A DNA stretch of 33,058 bases from Rhodothermia bacterium. Lineage in GTDB: Bacteria > Bacteroidota > Rhodothermia > Rhodothermales > UBA2364. The position numbers and the translations under genes are program-made. The notes below the pieces were generated by a model. The model was not told the origin of the DNA. It saw only the letters and a list, made by a program, of their open reading frames with translations, and made no database searches. Location of the stretch: assembly GCA_017303715.1 (NCBI GenBank), contig JAFLBZ010000045.1, positions 1 to 33,058 of the forward strand, written 5' to 3'. Of the stretch, positions 1,638 through 14,662 are shown in pieces. Every line of letters begins with the position of its first letter. The first letter of the stretch is position 1.

Positions 1638-2165
1638 ATGTTGTATATTGCGTCCCACCAATTTTCAACCCATCCTTATAGCCTCATGAGACAACCACCA
1701 GATGTTCGGTTTATGCAGGAAGCGATCCACCTATCGGTAGAGAATGTGGCGTGTGGTCATGGAGGCCCTTTTGGGGCGGTGGTGGTGAAAGACGGAAGAA
1801 TTATCGCACGAGGGGCAAATAGTGTTACCCGCCTCAACGATCCAACTGCCCACGCCGAGGTGATGGCCATTCGGGAGGCATGTGCTGTTCTGAACACGTT
1901 TCAGCTTATTGGCTGCGAGATTTACAGCAGTTGCGAGCCATGTCCCATGTGTCTCGGTGCCATTTATTGGGCGAGGCCAGATGCCCTCTATTTCGCCAAT
2001 AGCAAAGAAGACGCTGCCGCCATTCACTTTGATGACCAATTTATTTACGAAGAGTTAGCCCTGCCCTTAGAAAAAAGAAAGCTCTTTACCCGCCAAATGT
2101 TGCGCGATGACGCCCTTGAAGCGTTTAAAAAATGGGCCGAAAGTAGCGCTAAAATTGAATATTGA
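1638..2165 (+). CDS. guaD: Guanine deaminase (nucleoside/cytidine deaminase-like fold)
   Basis: The protein has 175 residues and belongs to the cytidine-deaminase-like zinc hydrolases. The zinc-site motifs are visible: HAE (catalytic Glu, about residue 74) and PCPMC (two Cys ligands, about residues 102-106). The overall pattern (GGPFGAVVVKDG, NDPTAHAEV, YSSCEPCPMC) matches the GuaD-type guanine deaminases that convert guanine to xanthine and ammonia in the cytoplasm. A tRNA adenosine deaminase has the same core, but the short downstream helical tail and the position ahead of xanthine dehydrogenase favour guanine. The ATG at 1638 has a close GGGGAG. An in-frame ATG at 1686 (residue 17) would give a length nearer the family norm of about 155-160 residues. 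It is the first gene of the operon, and xdhA starts one base after its stop. Confidence 0.85.
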   Translation: MLYIASHQFSTHPYSLMRQPPDVRFMQEAIHLSVENVACGHGGPFGAVVVKDGRIIARGANSVTRLNDPTAHAEVMAIREACAVLNTFQLIGCEIYSSCEPCPMCLGAIYWARPDALYFANSKEDAAAIHFDDQFIYEELALPLEKRKLFTRQMLRDDALEAFKKWAESSAKIEY

Positions 2166-2166
2166 C

Positions 2167-3576
2167 ATGATTTCATTCCTCCTAAACCATCAGTTGATCC
2201 ATACGGATCATCCGGCGGGTAGCACCCTTTTAGATTTTGTTCGATACCACAAACGGTTGACTGGTACAAAAATTGGATGTCGGGAAGGGGACTGCGGCGC
2301 TTGTACCCTCTTGGTTGGCGATTTTGAGGACGGCAAATTGGTGTATCGGAGCGTAACTTCTTGTATTATGCCGCTTGGCAACGTGAATGGACGCCATGTT
2401 GTCACCGTCGAGGGCATTAATGTGGAAGGGCTAAGCCCCGTACAAGCGGCAATGGTGGCGACAAATGGTACCCAATGCGGCTTTTGTACCGTTGGATTTG
2501 TGATGTCGTTAACGGGCTTTATGATGTCCGCCCACAAGCCAACCGTAGAAGAAGCCATAACCGCGATTGATGGAAATATTTGCCGTTGCACGGGTTATAA
2601 GTCCATTGAAAGAGCCGTGGCGTCAATCACCGAGACGGTTTTAACGTTAAACGAAGAGGATCGTTTGGTCGAAATGGCCGAAAAAGGGTATCTTCCGCTC
2701 TATTTTGCCCAGATCAAGACTAGGCTTATGGCCTTGCAGATGGAATTGGCGGAAAAATACAGGGGCATTCCGGAGGATCATAATGTTGTTTTGGGTGGTG
2801 GAACGGACTTGTTGGTTCAACGTCCCGAAAATGTACGGGAGAGCAAACCCCGTTTGGTGGCAAGGGAGATGGATTTGCAAGGCATTTGGATGGAAAATGG
2901 ACGTTGTTATTTGGGCGCTTCGACCACAGCTACGCAAATTGCCACATCCGAGGTCATGAAGAAGTATTTGCCCAGTCTTCCAAAAGTCATCCGTTTGGTC
3001 TCTTCCACTCAAATCAGAAACAAAGCAACCTTGGCCGGCAATATCGTAAATGCCTCTCCAATTGGTGATTTCAGCATTTTCTTCATGGGTCTTGATGCTG
3101 ATGTACACCTTTCTACCCGATCAGGACGCGCCAGAACCGTTCCGCTTCGTGATTTTTACATTGGTTATAAACAATTGGCCAAGCGGCCCGAAGAACACCT
3201 AACGGCCATCTCGTTCCGGCCTCCGTCACCTCATACCCATGTAAACTTTGAGAAAGTTTGCAAGAGAACGCATTTAGACATCGCCAGTGTCAACTCCGCC
3301 TGTTCTATCCAAACGGACGAATCCGGAAAAATCACCAAAATTCATCTTTCTGCGGGTGGTGTTGCGCCATACCCCAAATACCTTAGTGAAACTTGCCAGT
3401 TTTTGACCGGAAAAATAGTGGACGAAGCCCTTTTCGTGGCTGCAAACGAGATCTTGCAAAAGGAAATTGCGCCCATTAGCGATGTACGAGGCACTGCGGA
3501 ATACAAGCGTCTCCTTGCACGACAACTGTTTTTTGCCCATTTTCAAGCCGCTTTTCCCGAAATTCGATTTGTTTAG
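2167..3576 (+). CDS. xdhA: Xanthine dehydrogenase, FeS/FAD subunit
   Basis: The subunit has 469 residues from the ATG at 2167, one base after the guaD stop; longer upstream starts lie inside guaD. The N-terminal domain holds the plant-type 2Fe-2S cluster (C38, C43, C46, C66). The next domain holds the second 2Fe-2S cluster (C104, C107, C139, C141, in CGFC and CRC). From about residue 195 a FAD-binding domain follows, with LGGGTDLLVQ (209-218) and LAGNIVNASPIGD (289-301), then the CO-dehydrogenase flavoprotein C-terminal domain. It passes electrons from the molybdenum site on XdhB to NAD+ or another acceptor during oxidation of hypoxanthine and xanthine to urate. The size and domain order match two-subunit bacterial XdhA. 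No xdhC maturation gene is in the window. Confidence 0.93.
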   Translation: MISFLLNHQLIHTDHPAGSTLLDFVRYHKRLTGTKIGCREGDCGACTLLVGDFEDGKLVYRSVTSCIMPLGNVNGRHVVTVEGINVEGLSPVQAAMVATNGTQCGFCTVGFVMSLTGFMMSAHKPTVEEAITAIDGNICRCTGYKSIERAVASITETVLTLNEEDRLVEMAEKGYLPLYFAQIKTRLMALQMELAEKYRGIPEDHNVVLGGGTDLLVQRPENVRESKPRLVAREMDLQGIWMENGRCYLGASTTATQIATSEVMKKYLPSLPKVIRLVSSTQIRNKATLAGNIVNASPIGDFSIFFMGLDADVHLSTRSGRARTVPLRDFYIGYKQLAKRPEEHLTAISFRPPSPHTHVNFEKVCKRTHLDIASVNSACSIQTDESGKITKIHLSAGGVAPYPKYLSETCQFLTGKIVDEALFVAANEILQKEIAPISDVRGTAEYKRLLARQLFFAHFQAAFPEIRFV

Positions 3577-3586
3577 GAAGACCACC

Positions 3587-5875
3587 ATGAAGCAAGACAC
3601 GATAAACACGCCACTCCCTTTGGGCAATCCAGATGCTATCGGACACGTTACCGGTCGCTCCCTATATTTAGACGACCTTCCCGTGATGCAAGAAACCCTT
3701 TCCCTTTTGGTGATGGATTCACCGGTTGCACATGGTAAATTAACCAAGTTGGACGTCCAAAAAGCCTTGGAACTCCCCGGCATCGTGGCCATTTTCACCG
3801 CGAAAGACGTCCCCGGCGAAAACCAAATTGGTGGGATTTTGCCAGATGAACCGCTTTTTGCCGAGGATGAAGTGCATTATCAAGGCCAGCCCATTTTGCT
3901 CATTGCCGCCGAGACCGAGCATGAGGCAGAAACCGCACGAAAGGCCATCTCAGTTGAAATTACGCCTTTGCCCGTCGTTACGGATCCACGCGAGGCGTAT
4001 GCAAGCGGGCAACTTCTTTCGGCCTCCCGTACCTTCAAAATGGGAAATACTGAAGAAAGTTTTGCAACATGTGCCCATGTTTTTTCTGGACTTGCAGAAA
4101 ATGGCGGACAGGAGCACCTTTATTTAGAAACGCAAGGTGCTTATGCCTATCCTACGGAATCTGGCGGCGTCAAGGTACACTCTTCTACTCAAGGCCCTAC
4201 GGCTGTTCAACGTACCGTTGCACGGGTTTTGGGTCTATCCATGAACCGTGTAGAGGTGGATGTGACCCGTTTGGGTGGTGGATTTGGCGGCAAAGAGGAT
4301 CAAGCCTCGCTTTGGGGTGCATTGGCGGCCTTAGCCGCTTGGAAAACCGGACGAGCTGCAAAATTGGTTCCTCATCGTATGCAAGACTTGCGCATGACAG
4401 GTAAGCGACATCCCTATTCAAGCGATTACAAAATAGGTTTAGACAAAGACTTACATATTTTGGCATATGAGGCTACCTATTTTCAAAATGGTGGGGCAGC
4501 GGCGGATCTTTCCCCGGCTATTTTAGAACGCACCCTTTTCCATGCCACCAATTGTTATGCTATCCCCAACGTAACAGCAACCGCACATGCTTGCAAAACC
4601 AACCTCCCACCCAATACGGCGTTCCGAGGATTTGGCGGGCCACAAGGGATGTTTGTTATCGAGGCAGCCATTCACCATGCCGCGCGTGAACTTGGGGTCT
4701 CGGCAGCTACAATTCAAGAAAAAAACCTTGTCGAAGACGGCTATGAAATGTCGTATGGCCAAAAACTGACCGCCGCAAAAGCAAAACCCACATGGAAAAA
4801 AGCGTCAGAAAAATTCGACTTACACGGCTTGCAAGATTCGATTGCGCAGTTTAACCAAGCACAGCATTATCAAAAAAAGGGTCTTTCCATTATGCCCATT
4901 TGTTTTGGAATCTCGTTCACCAATACGATGATGAATCAAGCACGCGCATTGGTACATGTTTATTCCGATGGCAGTGTAAGTATTAGTACAGGTGCTGTTG
5001 AAATGGGTCAGGGCGTGAATGCAAAAATGATGCAAGTGGCGGCAAAGACATTCGGCATTCCATTAGAACGGATCCGTTTGGAAACCACCAATACCGGAAG
5101 GGTTGCGAATACCTCCCCTTCGGCAGCGAGTGCAACAGCGGATTTAAATGGCAAAGCCGTCTCGGATGCCTGTAAACAGATCCGAGGACGCATCATAACC
5201 GTATTGTCCGAACTTGCCGGAACCAATAATGTGGACATTGCAGAGGGAAAAATCTGGGTTAACAAGGCCATTTCAGATATTTCGTGGCCTCAATTGGTTC
5301 AAACCTGTCATGCCAAACGCATTAATCTAAGCGCAAAAGGCCACTACGCCACGCCAGAAATCCATTTTGATAAGACCACCGAAAAAGGCCATCCCTTTGC
5401 ATATCATGTCTATGGAACCGCCATTACCGTGGCAAAAGTGGATTGTATTCGGGGCACATACACTTTCGACTTGGTTAAATTGGTGCATGATGCCGGATCA
5501 AGCATGAATCCCTTGGTGGACTTAGGCCAAATTGAAGGTGGGTTGGTGCAGGGTATGGGTTGGATGACGATGGAAGAAGTGGTATATGACCGAGAAGGAA
5601 AACTGCGCTCTAATGCCCTTTCAACGTATAAAATTCCAGACATCTATGCCATCCCCTCGACTTTAGAAGTGGACTTTTTGGAAGAAGAAGGTCCTGAATT
5701 GGCCATTTTCAAATCGAAGGCCGTAGGTGAACCTCCTCTTATGTACGGCATTGGGGCTTATTTTGCGATTTATAATGCCATTGCCGCCTTTAATCCCTCT
5801 GCTCAACCCGACTACTCGGCTCCGATGACGCCCGAAAAGGTACTTATGGCCCTTTACGCCAACGAAAAAGCATGA
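3587..5875 (+). CDS. xdhB: Xanthine dehydrogenase, molybdopterin subunit
   Basis: The subunit has 762 residues and starts at the ATG at 3587, preceded by AGGAAG (3575-3580) with six bases of spacing; this also avoids a 40-residue extension lying inside xdhA. Visible Moco and active-site motifs are GGGFGGKE (230-237), FRGFGGPQG (346-354, with the substrate-orienting Arg347), the EMGQG loop in the C-terminal half, and GEPPL with the likely base Glu715, equivalent to the catalytic Glu of Rhodobacter XdhB. Length and order fit the XdhB family: an a/b-hammerhead domain followed by two Mo-binding domains. It hydroxylates hypoxanthine to xanthine and xanthine to urate. Its stop overlaps the allB start as ATGA, which suggests translational coupling. 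Confidence 0.93.
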   Translation: MKQDTINTPLPLGNPDAIGHVTGRSLYLDDLPVMQETLSLLVMDSPVAHGKLTKLDVQKALELPGIVAIFTAKDVPGENQIGGILPDEPLFAEDEVHYQGQPILLIAAETEHEAETARKAISVEITPLPVVTDPREAYASGQLLSASRTFKMGNTEESFATCAHVFSGLAENGGQEHLYLETQGAYAYPTESGGVKVHSSTQGPTAVQRTVARVLGLSMNRVEVDVTRLGGGFGGKEDQASLWGALAALAAWKTGRAAKLVPHRMQDLRMTGKRHPYSSDYKIGLDKDLHILAYEATYFQNGGAAADLSPAILERTLFHATNCYAIPNVTATAHACKTNLPPNTAFRGFGGPQGMFVIEAAIHHAARELGVSAATIQEKNLVEDGYEMSYGQKLTAAKAKPTWKKASEKFDLHGLQDSIAQFNQAQHYQKKGLSIMPICFGISFTNTMMNQARALVHVYSDGSVSISTGAVEMGQGVNAKMMQVAAKTFGIPLERIRLETTNTGRVANTSPSAASATADLNGKAVSDACKQIRGRIITVLSELAGTNNVDIAEGKIWVNKAISDISWPQLVQTCHAKRINLSAKGHYATPEIHFDKTTEKGHPFAYHVYGTAITVAKVDCIRGTYTFDLVKLVHDAGSSMNPLVDLGQIEGGLVQGMGWMTMEEVVYDREGKLRSNALSTYKIPDIYAIPSTLEVDFLEEEGPELAIFKSKAVGEPPLMYGIGAYFAIYNAIAAFNPSAQPDYSAPMTPEKVLMALYANEKA

Positions 5876-7224
5876 AAAAACGCATTGGTTTGTACAGCCG
5901 TCGCTGTTTTGTCCGTGGCAAATTGGAAGAAGCCATTGTATTTACAGCACATGGAAAAATCACAGAAGTCCGAAAAGGGCGAAAAATATTCCCCGACGAA
6001 GCCGTTCAGGACTATGGAGATGCTGTGATGATGCCGGGCGTAATTGATGCACATGTTCACATCAATGAACCGGGACGCACAAATTGGGAAGGCTTCGAGA
6101 CCGCAACCAAAGCGGCAAGTTTTGGGGGGACTACCTTTTTGGTGGACATGCCCCTAAATTCAAGTCCGGTTACAACGGATGCAAAAGCACTTGCATTAAA
6201 GCTAAAAGCCGCCTCCAACAAATCCTTGGTGCATTGTGGATTTTATGGAGGTTTGGTTCCAAGCAACCTATCCGAAATTCCAGCCCTTATAGAAGCGGGT
6301 GTTCTTGGCATTAAAACATTTTTGGTACATTCGGGAATAGATGAGTTTCCGAATGCGCGATTAGATGACCTCGACAAAATAATGCCCTTGCTTGCAAAAG
6401 CCGATCTCCCCCTTTTGGTGCATTGCGAAATTCCAGATGGGACTGGCGGTTTTTCGGACTATTCAGATCCTCACCGCTACCAGCATTACCTCAATAGCCG
6501 TCCTCCTTCTTGGGAGGTTAATGCGATTGCGGCAGTTATTGCGCTTTGTGCCAAACATAACTGTAAAACCCATATTGTACACGTCTCCGCATCGGAATCG
6601 CTGCCTCTCATCGAGGTTGCAAAAAAGGACGGATTACCCTTAACCGCCGAGACTTGTGCGCATTACCTTTATTTTTCTGCGGAAGAAATCCCAGACAGCG
6701 AACCGATTTATAAATGTGCCCCACCCATTCGGACACAAGCCAATAACCACAAATTAATAGCCGCCCTTAAGACTGGTGTTTTGGATTTTATCACATCAGA
6801 TCATTCGCCAGCACCAGCAGAAGTAAAATCACTTGAAAGTGGGAATTTTAAGACGGCTTGGGGTGGTATTTCTGGTTTACAATCGCTACTTCCCGCTAGT
6901 TGGACAGCTTTAAAAGACGAATTTTCGTTGGAAGACTTCATCCCATTACTCACTGAAAAACCAGCAAAGTTTATTGGCCTATTCCCGCAAAAGGGTGTTC
7001 TCCAAGAAGGATCAGATGCAGATTTTGTGGTCTGGCAACCTGAAATCCCCTTTATCCTAAAGCAAGAAAATTTACAATATCGTCACAAATTCTCTCCCTA
7101 TTTAGGCAAGCGTTTTTTGGGAAATATCATTGCCACTTATGTATTAGGAGAAAATGTCATTCATCACCGCCCAAACACCCTAAACAAAGGAACATGCATC
7201 CTAAGAAAATTCAAGAAATCATAA
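5872..7224 (+). CDS. allB: Allantoinase (cyclic amidohydrolase)
   Basis: The enzyme has 450 residues in the dihydroorotase/allantoinase group of metal-dependent hydrolases. The binuclear metal site is visible: H61 and H63 in DAHVH, K148 in GIKTF (the carboxylated Lys), H184 in LLVHCE, H237 in HIVHVS, and D310 in TSDHSP. It opens the hydantoin ring of S-allantoin to give allantoate. Dihydroorotase or hydantoinase would be the alternatives, but the operon (allantoin-forming enzyme and allantoicase) settles the choice. Its start overlaps the xdhB stop (ATGA). Its last 31 bases overlap the start of alc, so the C-terminal residues are encoded in shared sequence. Confidence 0.92.
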   Translation: MKKRIGLYSRRCFVRGKLEEAIVFTAHGKITEVRKGRKIFPDEAVQDYGDAVMMPGVIDAHVHINEPGRTNWEGFETATKAASFGGTTFLVDMPLNSSPVTTDAKALALKLKAASNKSLVHCGFYGGLVPSNLSEIPALIEAGVLGIKTFLVHSGIDEFPNARLDDLDKIMPLLAKADLPLLVHCEIPDGTGGFSDYSDPHRYQHYLNSRPPSWEVNAIAAVIALCAKHNCKTHIVHVSASESLPLIEVAKKDGLPLTAETCAHYLYFSAEEIPDSEPIYKCAPPIRTQANNHKLIAALKTGVLDFITSDHSPAPAEVKSLESGNFKTAWGGISGLQSLLPASWTALKDEFSLEDFIPLLTEKPAKFIGLFPQKGVLQEGSDADFVVWQPEIPFILKQENLQYRHKFSPYLGKRFLGNIIATYVLGENVIHHRPNTLNKGTCILRKFKKS

Positions 7225-8219
7225 AAGAAGCCCCCGATTTCACCAAAAAAACCTATTTGGCCGCCGAAGCAATGGGCGGAAAAGTATTGTTTGCCACCGA
7301 TGAATTTTTCGCCGAAAAAGAAAACCTAATTAAGCCCGGAAGAGGTGTTTTTATCGAGGATAAATATACCGAACGTGGCAAATGGATGGATGGATGGGAG
7401 TCTCGGAGGCGCAGAACGCCCGGCCACGATTATGCCGTGATCCAATTGGCAACCGATGGCATCGTCGCTGGTTTCGACATAGACACCAACCACTTTACAG
7501 GGAATCATCCTCCATTTGCATCGGTCGAAGGGATCCTTTTGGAGCCAGACCATAACATCAAAAACTGGGATGACCCATCCTTACGTTGGGAAGTCTTGCT
7601 CCCACGCCTTCCTCTTGATCCCGGAAGCCACAACTATTATGTATGCCACAATGCCGCTCCGGTAAATCATGTGCGCCTACACATTTTTCCAGATGGAGGA
7701 ATTGCCCGTTTTCGGGTGTATGGCGATGTTCAAAAAGACTGGTCTGTGGTATCTAAAAATGCCAAAATAGACTTGGTCGCCGCCTTAAATGGTGGACATG
7801 CACTTATGTGTAACGACATGTATTTTAGCGATATGCGTAACCTAATCTTGCCACAAAAAGGCATCAATATGGGGGATGGCTGGGAAACCAAACGTAGCCG
7901 AACCCCTAACCACCATGATTGGGTGATCTTGCGACTTGGGCATAAAGGCATTTTACAAGAAGTACTCGTGGATACTGCACATTTTAAAGGCAATTACCCC
8001 GATTATTGCACTTTAGAGGGTTGTTTTGCTGAGGACGATGAAGCCGTTTTGCGCGATGACGTGGAATGGAAGGCACTTATGCCGCCCCTCAAACTCCATG
8101 CCGATGATGAGCACAAGGTCTGCCTTTCGCCACACTTGTCGCCTGTCTCGCATGTACGATTTTCAATTTATCCAGATGGCGGTGTAAGCCGTCTTCGGTT
8201 GTTTGGCCATATTGTTTAA
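7194..8219 (+). CDS. alc: Allantoicase
   Basis: The protein has 341 residues and is built from two copies of the allantoicase jelly-roll domain, about residues 20-170 and 180-341. Paired signatures show the duplication: DGWESRRRRTPGHD with DTNHFTGNHPP in the first half, and DGWETKRSRTPNHHD with DTAHFKGNYPD in the second. Both halves end in a FRVYG or LRLFG strand. It hydrolyses allantoate to ureidoglycolate and urea. The ATG at 7194 has AAAGGAA just upstream inside allB, giving a 31-base overlap. The first domain aligns from soon after this start, which supports it. puuD follows after 14 bases. Confidence 0.93.
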   Translation: MHPKKIQEIIKEAPDFTKKTYLAAEAMGGKVLFATDEFFAEKENLIKPGRGVFIEDKYTERGKWMDGWESRRRRTPGHDYAVIQLATDGIVAGFDIDTNHFTGNHPPFASVEGILLEPDHNIKNWDDPSLRWEVLLPRLPLDPGSHNYYVCHNAAPVNHVRLHIFPDGGIARFRVYGDVQKDWSVVSKNAKIDLVAALNGGHALMCNDMYFSDMRNLILPQKGINMGDGWETKRSRTPNHHDWVILRLGHKGILQEVLVDTAHFKGNYPDYCTLEGCFAEDDEAVLRDDVEWKALMPPLKLHADDEHKVCLSPHLSPVSHVRFSIYPDGGVSRLRLFGHIV

Positions 8220-8233
8220 CTTACTTCACGCAC

Positions 8234-9616
8234 ATGGTTTTCGTGTTTATTTTTGCGGTTATTGCTTTTCTGGGCTTGTTCGGTTTAACGGTAATGTTCC
8301 ACCTTCGGAAAACAAATAACCCAGAAGCCGCACCTGACGAAAAAACGAAAGGTTGGGCTTACATTGCCTTATTAATGGCCTTGGCCGCCGTTATTTATTC
8401 GGGCTATCGTCTTGCCTTAGGAAGCCCTTGGGAAGCCCATCTTTTTGAGTGGATGAATTTAGTCCTCCGACTGATGCACTTTACCTTTGGAATTGCATGG
8501 ATTGGGGCTTCTTTCTATTTTGTTTTTTTGGAAAATGCCTTAAATAGAACCGAAAATGTACGCGAGGAATTGGCAGGAAATCTTTGGGCTGTGCATGGTG
8601 GTGGATTCTATTATTTAGAAAAATTTAAGGTTGCCCCAACCGAAATTCCAAAGAAATTACATTGGTTTAAGTATGAGGCTTATTTTACTTGGTTGTCTGG
8701 CTTTAGCCTTTTATTTGTGGTTTACTATTTCAATGCGAAATCCATGTTAATAGACCCGCAAATTATGGATATACAACCGATTACAGCCATTGCAATAGGT
8801 GTTGTCTCTCTTATTGTTGGATGGGTTGTTTATGATGGGTTATGTAGAACACCATTGGTACAAAATAATCTTTTATTTGGCCTTGTTTTTTTGGTAATAT
8901 CCGTTGTTTTTGCCTTTTTCTATACGCAAGTTTTTAGCCCACGTGCGGCATTTATTCATTTTGGTGCATTCCTCGGAACTATTATGGCTGCCAATGTTTT
9001 TTTTGTAATTATCCCGTCACAGAAAGCCTTGGTGGCCGCAGCGAAAAATGGGGAAGCCCCAGATGGTCAATTGGGTAAGAAGGCAGGATTGCGCTCCTTG
9101 CACAACAATTATTTTACGCTGCCAGTCCTTTTTGTAATGATCAGCAATCACTTCCCAACGACCTTTGGCCACGCATATCCTTGGCTCATACTCTTGGGAA
9201 TGTCGGTGGGTTTAGCAGGGGTTAAACACTACCTAAATGTCTTGGAAAAACACCAATACAATGTCTGGATTTTGCCCGCTTCGGTTGTTTTATTATTGGG
9301 CATTGCCTTCATCACAGGCCCAAAAGCATCGTCAAATTCAGCAAGTTGTACCCCTGTGCCTTACGAGCAAGTACACAGCATTGTCCAAACCCGATGCCAA
9401 ACGTGCCATTCCTCTAATCCTACCGACGACGTGTTTAAAGTTGCCCCCAATGGCGTCTTATTTGAAACCTCGGCACACCTGATAAACGCCAAAGACAAAA
9501 TTCTACAACGGGTAATCCTTACCGAATCCATGCCTTTACTCAATAAAACCAAGATGACCAAAGCCGAAAGAGAAACTCTGCGTTGCTGGATAGAACAAGG
9601 TGCAAAATCTAATTAA
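8234..9616 (+). CDS. puuD: Membrane urate oxidase with cytochrome c domain (PuuD-type)
   Basis: The protein has 460 residues. About eight hydrophobic segments (roughly residues 1-22, 42-60, 74-100, 151-167, 183-203, 212-232, 240-262 and a cluster at 292-361) are followed by a soluble C-terminal class I cytochrome c domain. Its haem-binding CQTCH is at 388-392, with M433 and M441 as candidate axial ligands (the pattern is ESMPLLNKTKMT). This is the architecture of PuuD (DUF989-type), the urate hydroxylase that makes 5-hydroxyisourate and sends electrons to a respiratory chain instead of making hydrogen peroxide like UriC. It replaces any soluble uricase here. The cytochrome domain should lie outside the cytoplasm. 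The next gene begins 13 bases later and encodes the two enzymes that process its unstable product. Confidence 0.9.
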   Translation: MVFVFIFAVIAFLGLFGLTVMFHLRKTNNPEAAPDEKTKGWAYIALLMALAAVIYSGYRLALGSPWEAHLFEWMNLVLRLMHFTFGIAWIGASFYFVFLENALNRTENVREELAGNLWAVHGGGFYYLEKFKVAPTEIPKKLHWFKYEAYFTWLSGFSLLFVVYYFNAKSMLIDPQIMDIQPITAIAIGVVSLIVGWVVYDGLCRTPLVQNNLLFGLVFLVISVVFAFFYTQVFSPRAAFIHFGAFLGTIMAANVFFVIIPSQKALVAAAKNGEAPDGQLGKKAGLRSLHNNYFTLPVLFVMISNHFPTTFGHAYPWLILLGMSVGLAGVKHYLNVLEKHQYNVWILPASVVLLLGIAFITGPKASSNSASCTPVPYEQVHSIVQTRCQTCHSSNPTDDVFKVAPNGVLFETSAHLINAKDKILQRVILTESMPLLNKTKMTKAERETLRCWIEQGAKSN

Positions 9617-9629
9617 CTATTTATTCTTT

Positions 9630-10499
9630 ATGAATCTGAATGACCTAAACACACTCCCCCATCAGGCAGCTTACGAAGGTTTTTTTGCCTGTTGTGGTTC
9701 TGAATATTGGGCACAAAACATGGTGGGCAACAGGCCTTATGCAAGCACCGATCAAATGGTAAAAGTAGCCACAAACTTGTGGTACGACGTCTGTTCTGAA
9801 AAAGATTGGCTAAGCGCCTTTAAGCAACATCCTAAAATTGGAGACTTGGGATCGTTACAGAAAAAATTTGCCTCCACAAGTCATTTGGCGGGTGCTGAAC
9901 AATCGGGTGTTTTGGCAGCAGAAACCGAAATCCTGCAAGCCTTAGCACAGGCTAATGAAGATTACGAACGTGCAAATGGCTTCATTTTTATTGTATGTGC
10001 CACCGGAAAAAGTGCAGCAGAAATGCTTGGACTTATGTGTGAGCGCCTTTCACACCAAACCACAGCAGAACTCCGCATAGCGATGGGCGAACAACACAAA
10101 ATAACCCTGATACGTTTGCAAAAATGGCTGTTTCAAGCTGATTGGTCTGGGCTAAAAGTAAGCCAGCTTACCACACATGTTTTGGATACCTCGGCGGGGG
10201 AAACAGGTAAAAACATCACCATTCGCCTGCAAGACCAACTTCAAGACGGTACTTGGCAAACATTTGCTCTGGGTCAAACGAACCACGATGGCCGTATTCC
10301 AGATTTGTTACCGCCAAACAGGATCCTTCCAGCCAAAACCTACCGACTGGTTTTTGACACCGCACATTATTTCCAAAGTCGCCAACAAGAAACCTTTTAT
10401 CCCGAAGTGGAAATTCAATTTATCATTCGTGATGATGCACATTATCACGTACCCCTATTACTAAATCCCTACGGATATTCCACATACCGTGGAAGTTGA
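9630..10499 (+). CDS. OHCU decarboxylase / 5-hydroxyisourate hydrolase fusion
   Basis: This 289-residue bifunctional enzyme starts at the ATG at 9630; an earlier in-frame start (9600) lies inside puuD. Residues 1-165 are 2-oxo-4-hydroxy-4-carboxy-5-ureidoimidazoline decarboxylase, with the catalytic His67 in HPKIGD, SHLAGAEQSG (84-93) and the FIFIVCATGKS strand (118-128). Residues about 175-289 are a transthyretin-like HIU hydrolase, with H183 in LTTHVLD, R222 in GRIPDL, H273 and the diagnostic C-terminal YRGS. HIU is hydrolysed to OHCU and then decarboxylated stereospecifically to S-allantoin. The domain order is that of plant allantoin synthase (TTL) and some bacterial fusions. Here it stands directly after puuD, so one polypeptide handles both unstable intermediates. 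Confidence 0.92.
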   Translation: MNLNDLNTLPHQAAYEGFFACCGSEYWAQNMVGNRPYASTDQMVKVATNLWYDVCSEKDWLSAFKQHPKIGDLGSLQKKFASTSHLAGAEQSGVLAAETEILQALAQANEDYERANGFIFIVCATGKSAAEMLGLMCERLSHQTTAELRIAMGEQHKITLIRLQKWLFQADWSGLKVSQLTTHVLDTSAGETGKNITIRLQDQLQDGTWQTFALGQTNHDGRIPDLLPPNRILPAKTYRLVFDTAHYFQSRQQETFYPEVEIQFIIRDDAHYHVPLLLNPYGYSTYRGS

Positions 10500-10537
10500 G
10501 TGCCCGCCCTCTTAATCCTGCTAAAACCCTAATCCAG

Positions 10538-11974
10538 ATGCTTAAATTGACTATAGCAAACGATCAAAAGGAGAAACTTTTTAGTGCGCTTAGCACCGCA
10601 AATCTTGCTTTCCAGCAAAAATATCCGGGAGATCGGCCTGACCGTCAACCCGTGCATACGGTTTATGGCGGCGCAAATTTATTCCGTAGCAACACCATTC
10701 CAGTCTTGGGCAAACGGGCTTTGGAAATCATGGAGACCTACGCGCCCGACTTTTTGACGTTTGGGCGCATTTTTGGCTTAGAAGGAATTGCGTTGATTCC
10801 CGAAAACGTCGTAGGATCGGACTTGGAAGCCCAACTTAAACCGCTTTCGGCACGCGAACGAAGGGCGCATCCAGCCGGTTTGGCGTATGAAGTCTATCAT
10901 AAGGTACACAAAAAATTAAACGGTGAAGCGATCGAGGACTTCCGCGTTGACTTTGAAGACGGTTATGGCAACCGATCAAATGAAGAAGAAGACCTAACCG
11001 CCATTTTTACCGCCAAGGAAATGGCACGCGGTATGATGGAAAACACGCTTTCGCCTTTCATTGGGATTCGGATCAAGCCTTTCACCGAAGAAATGAAAGA
11101 ACGCGGCTTGAGAACATTGGATATTTTTCTGACCACACTTGTCCAAGAAACAGAGGGAAAACTTCCCGATCATTTTGTAGTGATGTTGCCCAAAGTGACG
11201 ATCCCAGAACAAGTAAGCACCCTTGTTGGTTTCTTTGAGGCTTTAGAAACGGCACTGGGCTTGGCGCCACAAACGCTAAAAATGGAAATGATGGTCGAGA
11301 CAACCCAGTCCATTATGGATGATGAAGGTATAAACCCCCTTTTCAGGTTTATCCGCGCCAGTAAAGGTCGCTGTATTGCCACCCATTTTGGGACCTATGA
11401 TTATACGGCCTCATGTAGCATCACTGCTCGTTACCAAGAAATGGATCATCCCGTCTGTGATTTTGCACACCACATGACCAAAGTCGCACTTGCGCATACA
11501 GGTATCTGGCTTTCCGACGGCGCTACAAACACCATGCCCATTGGCCCACATCGCGGCGAAGACCTGACCGAAGCAGAACTCAACGAAAATAGGGCGGTTG
11601 TGCACCGTGCTTGGCGCAAAGGCTATAACCACATCCGGCATTCCCTTTGGAACGGATTTTATCAGGGATGGGATCTTAATCCGGCACAGTTGCCCATGCG
11701 GTATGCGGCGGTATTTGCGTTCTTTATGGAAAGCTACGATGATGCAGTGGCGCGACTCCGTACATTCGTCGAAAAAGCCGCGCGCGCTACGCTCATAGGT
11801 GATGTGTTTGATGATGCCGCAACCGGGCAAGGGCTGCTCAACTATTTCTTGCGTGCCTTGAACAGTGGCGCGATTACCGAAGAAGAGGTTTTAGAAACCG
11901 GACTCACTTTGGATGAAATTCGTGGACGCTCGTTCAAAGCGATTCTTGAAAAAAGACGCATAGAGCGGTCTTAA
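10538..11974 (+). CDS. DUF6986 protein, citrate-lyase/aldolase superfamily
   Basis: The protein has 478 residues. I recognise it as DUF6986-like, resembling the HpcH/HpaI aldolase, citrate lyase beta and malate synthase TIM-barrel superfamily. Superfamily-like elements are DFEDGYG (138-144, acidic metal site), IGIRIKPF (175-182, Arg178), KMEMMVET (248-255, with Glu254), and FGTYDYT (284-290). No biochemical reaction is known to me. It is the last gene of the purine operon, whose final recognised product is ureidoglycolate, so a step on ureidoglycolate or glyoxylate is a reasonable inference. The start is uncertain: a TTG at 10496 overlaps the previous stop, but the ATG at 10538 puts the QKYPGDRPDRQPVHTVY block about as far from the N-terminus as I recall for relatives. 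Confidence 0.75.
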   Translation: MLKLTIANDQKEKLFSALSTANLAFQQKYPGDRPDRQPVHTVYGGANLFRSNTIPVLGKRALEIMETYAPDFLTFGRIFGLEGIALIPENVVGSDLEAQLKPLSARERRAHPAGLAYEVYHKVHKKLNGEAIEDFRVDFEDGYGNRSNEEEDLTAIFTAKEMARGMMENTLSPFIGIRIKPFTEEMKERGLRTLDIFLTTLVQETEGKLPDHFVVMLPKVTIPEQVSTLVGFFEALETALGLAPQTLKMEMMVETTQSIMDDEGINPLFRFIRASKGRCIATHFGTYDYTASCSITARYQEMDHPVCDFAHHMTKVALAHTGIWLSDGATNTMPIGPHRGEDLTEAELNENRAVVHRAWRKGYNHIRHSLWNGFYQGWDLNPAQLPMRYAAVFAFFMESYDDAVARLRTFVEKAARATLIGDVFDDAATGQGLLNYFLRALNSGAITEEEVLETGLTLDEIRGRSFKAILEKRRIERS

Positions 11975-12130
11975 GGGTTTGGGTTGGGGTTACGTCAAAA
12001 AACAGGTTGCCTTTTTTTATCTTTCAAGAAAGGCTTTATCTTGGGTTTTGCGCCAAAGGTACAAATGCCAATTTTCTTCCCAAATTTATACCCAATTTGG
12101 TAACTCCATACCCCAATCCCCAAATTCTTG
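11975..12130. promoter_or_regulatory. Gap between purine operon and propeller gene
   Basis: A weak terminator-like element lies at about 11997-12020: an A-rich arm, the AGGTTGCC turn and a seven-T run. CCAAATT (12080-12086) and AATTTGG (12094-12100) form a 7-bp inverted repeat with a 7-nt loop, 30 bases before the next start. No convincing TAnnTTTG box is seen on the plus strand. Confidence 0.3.
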
Positions 12131-14662
12131 ATGAACAAGACATTGCTTTTTTGCATAGTTGCTTCTTTATTTACAGGCTGTATCAAAAACAGTAATACCG
12201 AAGAAAGCAAAGATTTTCGTCCTGCCGAACGAGCATATTTACAAAGACTCTATCCTTATGGACAAGCAGATCCAGAGGTTTATCCCAAAGCACTTAGGCA
12301 CATTGCTTTGATGCAAAGCCAAGCACTTCAAAAAAGGAGCGTCTGGTCTAATATTGATTGGACTTTTGCCGGCCCAACCAATATTGGAGGACGGGTGGTG
12401 GATTTGGAATACAATCCTTTAGACCCGAATACGGTTTATGCGGCCTCGGCAACGGGTGGGCTTTTTAAAAGCACCAATGGAGGCAATCTTTGGAGTGCCA
12501 TAACCGATCAACTTCCCATTCAAAGCATTGGAGATTTAGGTGTTGACCCGCAAAACCCCAATAACCTCTATTTGGGTACGGGAGAGGCCAATGGCGGGCA
12601 CAATAATTTTTCCGGCGGCGGCTTGTATAAATCCACCAATGGTGGTGAATCGTGGGCCTTTATGGGTCTTGGTAAAACAACGTCTATTGGCCGTGTGGTT
12701 GTGGATTACCAAAACCCACAACGGATCTTTGTTGCAGCCCTTGGCTCCTATTTTCACCCGAATCCTGACAGAGGCGTTTATCGCTCCAAAAACGGTGGCG
12801 AAACATGGGAGAAAGTTCTTTTTGTATCCGACTCTACAGGGGTGGTAGATGTATTGCAACACCCCCAAAATCCCGACATTCTCTTTGCAGCTACATGGGA
12901 ACGGGTTCGGCGACCAGATTTCAACACCCACCTCTTTGGGCCATCCAGCGGGGTTTACCGCAGTACCGATGGCGGCGATACATGGCATCTTTTGACAAAT
13001 GGCCTGCCCGATGCTAAACAGCAAAATGTAGGTAGAATTGGCTTGGCTATTTCCAAAAGTTCACCCAATATCGTGATGGCTTTGTTTAGCAATGGAAGTT
13101 CTTTGACAGGGCTTTACAAAAGTACGGATGGTGGCGATTCGTGGGCAGCAACAACGGGAATGACTTCACTTAGTGGGACAGATGGTGGATTTACGTGGTA
13201 CTTTGGCCAAATTCGTATCCACCCCACCAATCCAGACCATGTTTTTGTGCTACAAGTCCAGTGTATGCGCTCTGTGGATGGCGGGCAATCCTTCTCGAAT
13301 GTCACGGAAAATATGCATGTTGATTTTCACGCCATGACCTTTCACCCACAAGACCCTAACTATATCCTAACGGGCAATGATGGAGGAATAGACTACTCAA
13401 CCAATGCGGGTTTAAATTGGTCGCCAAGCGGTGATATACCCATTACCCAATTTTACGAAATCAACTATGACCCCACCAACCCACTAAGGCTTTATGGCGG
13501 CACGCAAGACAATGGAACCATCCGCACCCTTACAGGTGACACATCGGATTGGGGTTCTATTTACGGCGGAGATGGTTTTTATGTGATTGTACATCCCACC
13601 AATCCCAATATTATTTATGCGGAATCCCAGAATGGCGGGCTTGGGAAGTCCATTAATGGTGGTACGTCTTTCCGTAGTGCCTTAACAGGGGTCAGTAGTA
13701 ACGATAAACGGGATTGGTCTATGCCCGTGATTATGGATCCCCACCAACCCGAAACCTTGTATCTCGGCACAAATCGCATCTATCGAACAGAAAATGGGGC
13801 GACAAATTGGAGTGCGGTGTCTCCAGTTTTACCTCGTGCTGTTGCTGCTTCTCGATTGGGCGCCATTACCACCATTGCCGTCTCTCCGACCAACCCAAAC
13901 ATTGTCTATGCCGGAACAGATGACGGGCAAGTTTGGGTGACAAAAGATTATGCCCATTCATGGACAAATGTCTCAACGGGTCTGCCCAACCGCTGGGTAA
14001 CACGAATTGCGGTTGATCCAAAGGATGAAAATGCCGCCGTTGTCACCTTTTCTGGTTTAAAATTTTATGATCCCCAACCACACGTTTTTCGCACGACAAA
14101 TCTTGGTGCAACATGGCAAAACATTTCCGCGAACCTACCAGATCTACCGATCAATGCACTAATCATTGACCCAAAGAATGCGGCAAACATTTTTGTAGGG
14201 ACTGATGCAGGCGCATTTTTGACGAACAATTATGGAGGAAGTTGGGAGCCATTAGGAGGCGGTTTGCCTGCAGTTCCGGTATATGACTTTAAAATTACAC
14301 CAGATCGCTCCTTTTTGATTGCCGGAACTCACGGAAGGGGCATGTATAAATTACCACTCTCCACTCTACCAGTGTCCATGACCAATGAAGCGCTCCCCAA
14401 TGCGTTGGTTACGCTTAATATTTTCCCCAATCCCATCGGCCAAAATGGAACCATCGAAGTGAACCTTCAGATTCCGCAAATGGTACGATTAGAGGTTTTT
14501 GATCTACAAGGACGACGTATCCGGATGCTTTCAGATACCGCTTTGGGCGTGGGACAGCATAAATTTGCATTAGGAGCGCAGGATTGGGCAAATGGAACCT
14601 ATATCGTCCGGCTTGCTACCGCGCAAAAGATCATCACCCAGAAATTGACGGTTCGTCGTTAG
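12131..14662 (+). CDS. Secreted Asp-box beta-propeller protein with T9SS sorting domain
   Basis: The protein has 843 residues. A hydrophobic N-terminal signal ends in a lipobox-like LFTGC (Cys17). The body consists of some twelve BNR/Asp-box repeats such as GLYKSTNGGESW, GVYRSTDGGDTW, GLYKSTDGGDSW and VFRTTNLGATW, typical of VPS10/sialidase-like propellers (WD40/YVTN-fold secreted proteins). Blocks of the form HPTNPN.IYA lie between them. The last about 80 residues (NIFPNP, LEVFDLQGR, WANGTYIVRL, a Lys/Arg-rich end) are a type A T9SS C-terminal domain. The substrate is unknown; relatives are often called glycosyl hydrolases without proof. The ATG at 12131 is preferred over a TTG one codon upstream. 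Its last 29 bases overlap the convergent gene on the minus strand. Confidence 0.85.
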   Translation: MNKTLLFCIVASLFTGCIKNSNTEESKDFRPAERAYLQRLYPYGQADPEVYPKALRHIALMQSQALQKRSVWSNIDWTFAGPTNIGGRVVDLEYNPLDPNTVYAASATGGLFKSTNGGNLWSAITDQLPIQSIGDLGVDPQNPNNLYLGTGEANGGHNNFSGGGLYKSTNGGESWAFMGLGKTTSIGRVVVDYQNPQRIFVAALGSYFHPNPDRGVYRSKNGGETWEKVLFVSDSTGVVDVLQHPQNPDILFAATWERVRRPDFNTHLFGPSSGVYRSTDGGDTWHLLTNGLPDAKQQNVGRIGLAISKSSPNIVMALFSNGSSLTGLYKSTDGGDSWAATTGMTSLSGTDGGFTWYFGQIRIHPTNPDHVFVLQVQCMRSVDGGQSFSNVTENMHVDFHAMTFHPQDPNYILTGNDGGIDYSTNAGLNWSPSGDIPITQFYEINYDPTNPLRLYGGTQDNGTIRTLTGDTSDWGSIYGGDGFYVIVHPTNPNIIYAESQNGGLGKSINGGTSFRSALTGVSSNDKRDWSMPVIMDPHQPETLYLGTNRIYRTENGATNWSAVSPVLPRAVAASRLGAITTIAVSPTNPNIVYAGTDDGQVWVTKDYAHSWTNVSTGLPNRWVTRIAVDPKDENAAVVTFSGLKFYDPQPHVFRTTNLGATWQNISANLPDLPINALIIDPKNAANIFVGTDAGAFLTNNYGGSWEPLGGGLPAVPVYDFKITPDRSFLIAGTHGRGMYKLPLSTLPVSMTNEALPNALVTLNIFPNPIGQNGTIEVNLQIPQMVRLEVFDLQGRRIRMLSDTALGVGQHKFALGAQDWANGTYIVRLATAQKIITQKLTVRR

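Follow-up and report, generated by a model that had tools for sequence, protein, structure and literature searches.

Chains that join an OHCU decarboxylase (UraD) to an HIU hydrolase (UraH) are a known kind of protein. The protein of PDB 5z5m, which we take to be the diatom allantoin synthase, has the decarboxylase first and the hydrolase second. The diatom enzyme is named in PMC10517255, which cites Oh et al. 2018; here and below, statements from cited papers are taken from extracts of those papers. For plants and bacteria, the extract of PMC2834698 (presumably Pessoa et al. 2010) names two-domain proteins in Magnetospirillum, Bradyrhizobium, Bacillus subtilis and plants, and reports that both activities of plant TTL have been demonstrated in vitro. 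PuuD, a membrane urate oxidase with a C-terminal cytochrome c motif, was described by Doniselli et al. 2015 (PMC4562309), whose extract also mentions shorter DUF989 proteins that lack the cytochrome and occur in other contexts.

The window, by which we mean the whole stretch of 33,058 nucleotides analysed here, encodes a predicted bacterial allantoin synthase of this kind. Like plant TTL (Arabidopsis; decarboxylase domain PDB 2q37), it combines an N-terminal OHCU decarboxylase with a C-terminal HIU hydrolase; one TTL isoform carries a peroxisomal signal between the domains, whereas the window protein has an 11-residue linker and is encoded in a bacterial operon. The diatom enzyme matches residues 64–289 of the window protein with 61 bits but belongs to another lineage, with 178.6 bits to the Methylobacterium fusion. 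That bacterial two-domain chain, from Methylobacterium bullatum (L036), aligns at 27% over residues 11–289 of the window protein and differs in falling in another lineage in our trees; its decarboxylase part gave no phmmer match with the window UraD domain at E 1e-5. Urate clusters of the same phylum can also encode both enzymes, in this order, as tandem uraD-uraH genes; in L049 the two genes overlap by ATGA. The window PuuD resembles the described protein in its membrane domain, cytochrome c motif and urate operon, and nothing notable sets it apart. Among the open-access papers listed by our searches, no title or abstract opening dealt with the present fusion.

The fused gene and its operon

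The fused gene is a single uninterrupted frame of 289 codons before the stop (Table 1). Pfam assigns its two parts to OHCU_decarbox (E 1.9e-34) and Transthyretin/HIUase (E 1.4e-37), both far above cut-off. With NCBIfam it scored 150 bits for UraD_2 (cut-off 139.4) and 128.8 bits for hydroxyisourate hydrolase (cut-off 87.45); a further decarboxylase model, TIGR03164, gave 43.3 bits, below its cut-off of 96.25. A sequence-only reading of this DNA had proposed a UraD-UraH fusion in one chain, with H67, H183, R222 and a YRGS end intact, in the domain order of plant TTL and 13 bases behind PuuD. Each of these points held: both domains exceed Pfam and NCBIfam cut-offs, H67 lies in an HPKIGD motif, YRGS occupies residues 286–289, UraD precedes UraH as in the plant and diatom proteins, and the measured gap to the PuuD stop is 13 bases. 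We take these residues, together with the third histidine of the hydrolase, H273, which the earlier list lacked, to be the catalytic ones. H67 is conserved in 26 of 27 rows of the UraD alignment, H183 in 34 of 35 rows of the UraH alignment, and R222 and H273 in all 35, with L005 and L022 (the genes of L043 and L055) counted as rows of these alignments.

The other two genomes of the genus also carry an intact fused chain, at 70% identity. Between the fusions of those two genomes dN is 0.075 and dS 0.542 (NG86; for pairs that include the window's fusion, dS is high or undefined), a dN/dS of about 0.14 that indicates purifying selection. Because the chain is open in both relatives, and given the dN and dS between them, the frame is very unlikely to be a product of chance or misassembly. 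The fusion is real and very probably functional. It was the sole match in a whole-genome protein search at E <= 0.001, and it is predicted to be the genome's only source of both activities. By eye the protein has no signal sequence, and a cytosolic location is expected.

Table 1 Features of the purine operon in the window
Feature	Coordinates	Strand	Evidence
Cytidine-deaminase-fold deaminase, by context probably guanine deaminase	1638..2165	+	PF00383 E 2e-25; same-place matches in L041, L042
Xanthine dehydrogenase small subunit	2107..3576	+	TIGR02963 361 bits, below cut-off 467; Fer2, Fer2_2, FAD_binding_5, CO_deh_flav_C
Xanthine dehydrogenase molybdopterin subunit	3584..5875	+	TIGR02965 807.6 bits, below cut-off 849.5
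Allantoinase	5872..7224	+	TIGR03178 476.5 bits, cut-off 357.85
Allantoicase	7194..8219	+	TIGR02961 412.2 bits, cut-off 277.9
PuuD membrane urate oxidase, C-terminal c-type cytochrome motif	8234..9616	+	PF06181 E 2.9e-124; CQTCH 9395–9409
UraD-UraH fusion, predicted bifunctional allantoin synthase, 289 aa	9630..10499	+	PF09349 7–164, PF00576 180–288; TIGR03180, TIGR02962 over cut-off
Linker between the domains, residues 166–176 (WLFQADWSGLK)	10125..10157	+	Comparison with tandem genes of the phylum
DUF6986 protein, CitE/HpcH-like	10538..11974	+	PF22484 E 2.3e-181

All genes from 1638 to 11974 share one strand, with short gaps or overlaps between them, and the other two genomes of the genus (L041, L042) have them in the same order. 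The last of them, encoding a DUF6986 protein, starts 38 bases past the stop of the fusion. The small subunit of xanthine dehydrogenase was scanned from 2107 and has a later ATG at 2167, while the start of the molybdopterin subunit at 3584 is the first base of the scanned stretch and is putative. Because both subunits fall below the NCBIfam equivalog cut-offs, the substrate of this enzyme is assigned by context. Downstream of the operon, the gene at 12128–14662 carries a T9SS sorting domain (TIGR04183, 40.5 bits, cut-off 23), which would fit an origin in Bacteroidota or a related group. Promoter and terminator scans returned counts at shuffle level (14 vs 16.4 and 17 vs 14.1, respectively). Among the open frames at 1638–11974 there is no XdhC-like gene for a maturation factor; an XdhC-like gene, below NCBIfam cut-offs, lies in or adjoins the cluster in L044, L045 and L048. 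Upstream of the operon we observed tandem arrays at 243–585, 703–932 and 1260–1411 with units of 51, 64 and 42 bases, the first of which underlies a repetitive open frame at 214–603.

Distribution and origin of the fusion

Of 394 genomes sampled across the phylum, 19 match: three have the fusion, nine have separate uraD and uraH genes and seven have uraH alone. The sample of the order (114 genomes) contains 11 matches, namely three fused, five with both genes apart, two with uraH alone and one (G036) with a weak uraD-like match alone. In both samples the fusion is thus confined to the genus, where it is found in three of three genomes. The uraD and uraH genes overlap by ATGA in five of the nine split genomes of the phylum sample (L046, L048, L049, L050 and L052) and in two plasmid records (L038, L039), overlap by GTGA in L040 and L002, form a spaced pair in L037 and are non-adjacent in seven relatives (L043, L044, L045, L047, L051, L095 and L096). 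HIU hydrolase-like genes also occur in genomes without a uraD match (seven of the 394), and in five stretches with such genes (L053–L057) nothing else matches the urate genes of the window.

Outside these samples, 486 plasmid records match the fusion query, 49 of them with one place that spans at least 80% of it. Among the 60 plasmid matches listed, 48 were joined from two or three pieces, ten were single pieces over 38–47% of the query and two (H49, H50) were single pieces over at least 93%. Five plasmid records were inspected (H1, H6, H14, H42 and H49), and all but H49 are annotated as two genes; H49 is the Methylobacterium bullatum record, with both domains in one open frame. A search of genome contigs for relatives of the fusion returned one locus, in which the genes are separate.

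The junction of the fused chain resembles the uraD-uraH gene pairs of its own phylum. After the linker, Val177-Ser-Gln stands in the place of the Met-Ser-Gln start of stand-alone uraH. In L049, uraD ends in LQKLLS and uraH starts with MSQVTTH, and the fused chains of the genus read LQKWL[FH]xADWSxLK-V-SQLTTH. The junction valine codon is GTA in the window and L041 and GTG in L042, and the AGY-CAR that follows it matches the ATG-AGY-CAR start of uraH in the five split genomes with an ATGA overlap. On our reading, the stop of uraD would have been lost, about eight codons would have been gained and the start of uraH would have become an internal valine codon. The most likely origin of the gene, from this comparison, is therefore the fusion of neighbouring uraD and uraH genes, an ancestral pair that would have overlapped as in these relatives, although the seven relatives with non-adjacent genes speak against an overlapping ancestor. 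Taking all the evidence together, the best explanation is a bifunctional allantoin synthase born of neighbouring uraD and uraH genes, to which we assign a probability of about 0.9.

The alternative is a ready-made fusion, inherited or transferred, of common descent with plant TTL or else with the fusions of alphaproteobacteria and the diatom, all of which have an identical domain order. We consider this very improbable. The sequence-only reading had pointed to the plant-like order and proposed a phylogeny of each domain against the plant and bacterial fusions, and the outcome was mixed. A single UraD clade of all six fused rows was rejected (AU p 2.4e-6), as was a single UraH clade of the five fused rows other than the plant (AU p 6.7e-6), whereas a UraD clade of the genus plus Arabidopsis was not rejected (AU p 0.29), with a long Arabidopsis branch and a sequence set without the plant HIU hydrolase domain. 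Because the trees reject one clade of all fusions, the shared domain order does not show a shared origin, and a single origin of all the fusions compared (Methylobacterium, diatom and, for UraD, plant) is rejected by these trees. The far stronger match of the Methylobacterium fusion to the diatom enzyme than of the window protein to it, and a junction like the gene pair of its own phylum, also argue against a shared origin. The fusion thus probably arose on its own in this lineage, and the junction makes its independence from the plant fusion likely.

The UraD tree places the genus in an 11-row clade (support 96/94) together with one Pseudoalteromonas row and seven rows from split genes of the phylum; measured by path, its closest unfused row is L049. 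The main UraD and UraH trees omit L005 and L022, the duplicates noted above. Support for the UraD clade fell to 84/93 in a second tree that omits seven mostly long-branched or other-lineage rows (L039, L007, L038, diatom, Methylobacterium, Agrobacterium and zebrafish). It also holds other families (f25, f29, f39), and relatives of the genus within its own order (L043, L044, L045, L058 and L059) lie outside it; gene transfer and weak signal are possible readings of this placement. In the UraH tree the genus sits on an open fork. The locus is a probable case of repeated origin in which relatives still carry the separate genes and the junction is alike.

PuuD, short-lived intermediates and the use of a fused chain

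The window PuuD combines Urate_ox_N with CQTCH at residues 388–392 and a methionine at position 433. In the proposed pathway it would oxidize urate to 5-hydroxyisourate at the membrane; the model argued in the Discussion of Doniselli et al. 2015 (PMC4562309) puts this reaction on the cytosolic side. Hydrolysis of 5-hydroxyisourate to OHCU would then fall to the C-terminal domain of the fusion and decarboxylation of OHCU to (S)-allantoin to its N-terminal domain, and the allantoinase and allantoicase of the operon would carry (S)-allantoin on to ureidoglycolate. The extract of the same paper gives half-lives of 7.2 minutes for HIU and 9.6 minutes for OHCU. The likely benefit of a fused chain is that two enzymes acting on successive, short-lived intermediates are made in equal amounts and kept in one place.

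Two other accounts of the fusion concern what it is good for. In one, a metabolon, it would be docked to PuuD from the cytosolic side and receive hydroxyisourate directly, and the adjacency of the genes would reflect this docking. The gap between PuuD and the fusion is indeed 13–16 bases in all three genomes of the genus, and the published model with urate oxidation on the cytosolic side (PMC4562309, extract) would suit such docking; direct transfer is a possible reading of this adjacency. The sequence-only reading had also suggested channelling from PuuD into the fusion, a proposal that gained no support from the present analysis. Close spacing is, however, expected of any operon, and of 15 clusters just the three of this genus have PuuD directly adjoining uraD. 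In other genomes PuuD runs divergently next to allantoinase (L046, L048, L049, L050), lies at the opposite end of the cluster next to xdhA (L044, L045, L096), is on another contig (G108, G285) or gave no match (genomes G023, G409 and G425). Docking is accordingly improbable, if somewhat less so than a common origin with the plant or diatom fusions, and plain co-location with equal dosage would explain the fusion without a metabolon.

The other account goes further and reduces the fusion to equal dosage and shared translation, with no kinetic gain over a translationally coupled pair. It is a serious contender to which we give a little under even odds. The overlapping gene pair kept in five of the nine split genomes of the phylum sample agrees with it, while the conservation of the linker perhaps hints at a role beyond dosage. 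Linker dN is 0.037 between the two genus relatives (domains 0.081 and 0.070) and 0.229 between the window and L041 (domains 0.253 and 0.185), each linker value being based on only 12 codons. Within the genus the linker is thus about as conserved as the domains, which may hint at a role for it. The preferred reading, a bifunctional synthase that brings the two activities together, could be set against dosage alone in the fused genus and its split relatives, which form a clean test of the kinetic gain from fusing enzymes of short-lived intermediates; such a gain would be of interest to uricolytic enzyme therapy.

Short PuuD-like proteins with open frames of 266–293 aa were seen in relatives, in L044 (17991–18869), L045 (18535–19356), L096 (16217–17068) and the genomes G108 and G285. 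The copies of L044, L045 and L096 have no CxxCH, a difference from the described PuuD, and the G285 frame reads through one TAG.

A DUF6986 protein and the fate of ureidoglycolate

The gene that follows the fusion encodes a DUF6986 protein (PF22484), a family that we find tied to urate and ureide clusters in two phyla (window, L041–L052, L095 and L096; L069, L071 and L072). DUF6986 is present in the urate cluster of 15 of the 16 uraD-bearing genomes examined (window, L041–L052, L095 and L096), and in five of these clusters (L043, L044, L045, L095 and L096) it sits between uraD and uraH. The sixteenth genome, G036, has a weak uraD-like gene at a contig edge and 14 kb without a further match to the window's genes. 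The five uraH-only stretches (L053–L057) contain no DUF6986. Among the 394 phylum genomes, PF22484 exceeds its cut-off in 16, twelve of which are exactly the 12 uraD genomes (Fisher p 7.4e-20, a value that ignores kinship; five families); all eight allantoicase genomes of this sample have it. The remaining four are G203, G276 and G332, with lower scores over most of the profile, and G319, with a partial match.

Allantoicase was not matched in L048, L049, L050 and L052, which have allantoate amidohydrolase and (S)-ureidoglycine aminohydrolase instead; both enzymes were called by NCBIfam in L049, and in the other three the amidohydrolase was called by TIGR01879 and the aminohydrolase by likeness seen by eye. 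The allantoicase route and the amidohydrolase/aminohydrolase route both end at ureidoglycolate. Five DUF6986 matches outside the phylum were obtained from the plasmid collection, all actinobacterial (31–35%). The Tsukamurella copy adjoins, in a purine cluster, a gene annotated as bifunctional allantoicase/(S)-ureidoglycine aminohydrolase, and the Nocardia copy adjoins an allantoicase match with uraD-uraH about 6 kb away. The Gordonia copy lies immediately 5' of a urease operon and about 9 kb from a malate synthase G gene, and the Paenarthrobacter copy adjoins a polysaccharide deacetylase and an NCS1 nucleobase symporter. In the unannotated Nonomuraea stretch none of the other urate genes of the window found a match.

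We searched 13 cluster genomes for known ureidoglycolate enzymes (the window's, G001, G002, G023, G029, G375, G088, G108, G125, G143, G212, G285 and G409; G425, G454 and G036 were left out). The AllA-type lyase family PF04115 is present in none of the 13. TIGR01879, which we take to be the family of the amidohydrolase UAH, is over cut-off in five, with weak matches in all 13, and PF02615, presumably the family of AllD, occurs in five, in no case within the cluster stretches. Seven of the 13, the window's genome included, have no over-cut-off match to any of the three families. In the phylum sample PF04115 occurs in six of 394 genomes, none with uraD, allantoicase or PF22484. The three enzymatic fates of ureidoglycolate are oxidation by AllD, the amidohydrolase (UAH) and the lyase (AllA/DAL3), and it also decays spontaneously to glyoxylate and urea (PMC3793230, extract). 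Because of this decay an enzyme is not strictly required.

A Pfam scan of the DUF6986 protein returned only PF22484 and, below cut-off, HpcH_HpaI (E 4.3e-5) and MS_TIM-barrel (E 0.0004); PF04115 was not among the matches, and membership of the AllA family was rejected. With hhalign, DUF6986 scored 95.8% over 232 columns against a CitE-like alignment, a comparison tilted by its three sequences having been chosen for weak PF22484 matches, and 20% over 78 columns against malate synthase A. Profile similarity over the barrel thus places DUF6986, as a prediction, in the CitE/HpcH superfamily. E254 and D288 are invariant in 13 sequences, and we take them to be the places of metal ligands. Against solved structures the profile gave 16 rows. 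Eleven of them, including the top ten, are TAL-effector-type repeat proteins, which we set aside as a probable artefact built up from many weak pieces. Of the remaining five rows, two are malyl-CoA lyases (E 0.0012 and 0.035) and three are malate synthase G (E 0.054–0.072). A single-sequence structure prediction, with a mean pLDDT of 39.6, was unusable. Searches of the open-access literature found no paper that names DUF6986, none that joins ureidoglycolate lyase, citrate lyase and purine, and none that combines ureidoglycolate, glyoxylate, Bacteroidetes and a missing step.

From this distribution and family likeness, DUF6986 likely acts on ureidoglycolate or on glyoxylate, which makes it a candidate enzyme for the last, missing step of the pathway. 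If confirmed, this would assign a role to the family and complete purine catabolism in genomes that gave no over-cut-off match to the three ureidoglycolate enzyme families of PMC3793230. A more specific and tentative proposal, which may well prove wrong, is that DUF6986 is a new ureidoglycolate-cleaving barrel of CitE/HpcH type, non-homologous to AllA, that releases glyoxylate with urea as the leaving group. Ureidoglycolate would be bound in much the same manner as the alpha-hydroxy acid of malyl-CoA lyases. By analogy, malyl-CoA and ureidoglycolate lyases may both release glyoxylate, bound to the metal, from an alpha-hydroxy acid. Such a lyase, if real, would close the ureide pathway of this phylum and some actinobacteria, but the three or four genomes with PF22484 and no uraD do not sit easily with it. 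DUF6986 could instead be a glyoxylate-condensing enzyme. This role is less needed in most genomes, since a canonical malate synthase is found elsewhere in ten of the 13, but it could fill a gap in the three where none was found (G029, G088 and G143). The actinobacterial DUF6986 copy near malate synthase could also point to glyoxylate, and the allantoin gene cluster of yeast holds a malate synthase, DAL7 (PMC3646786, extract).
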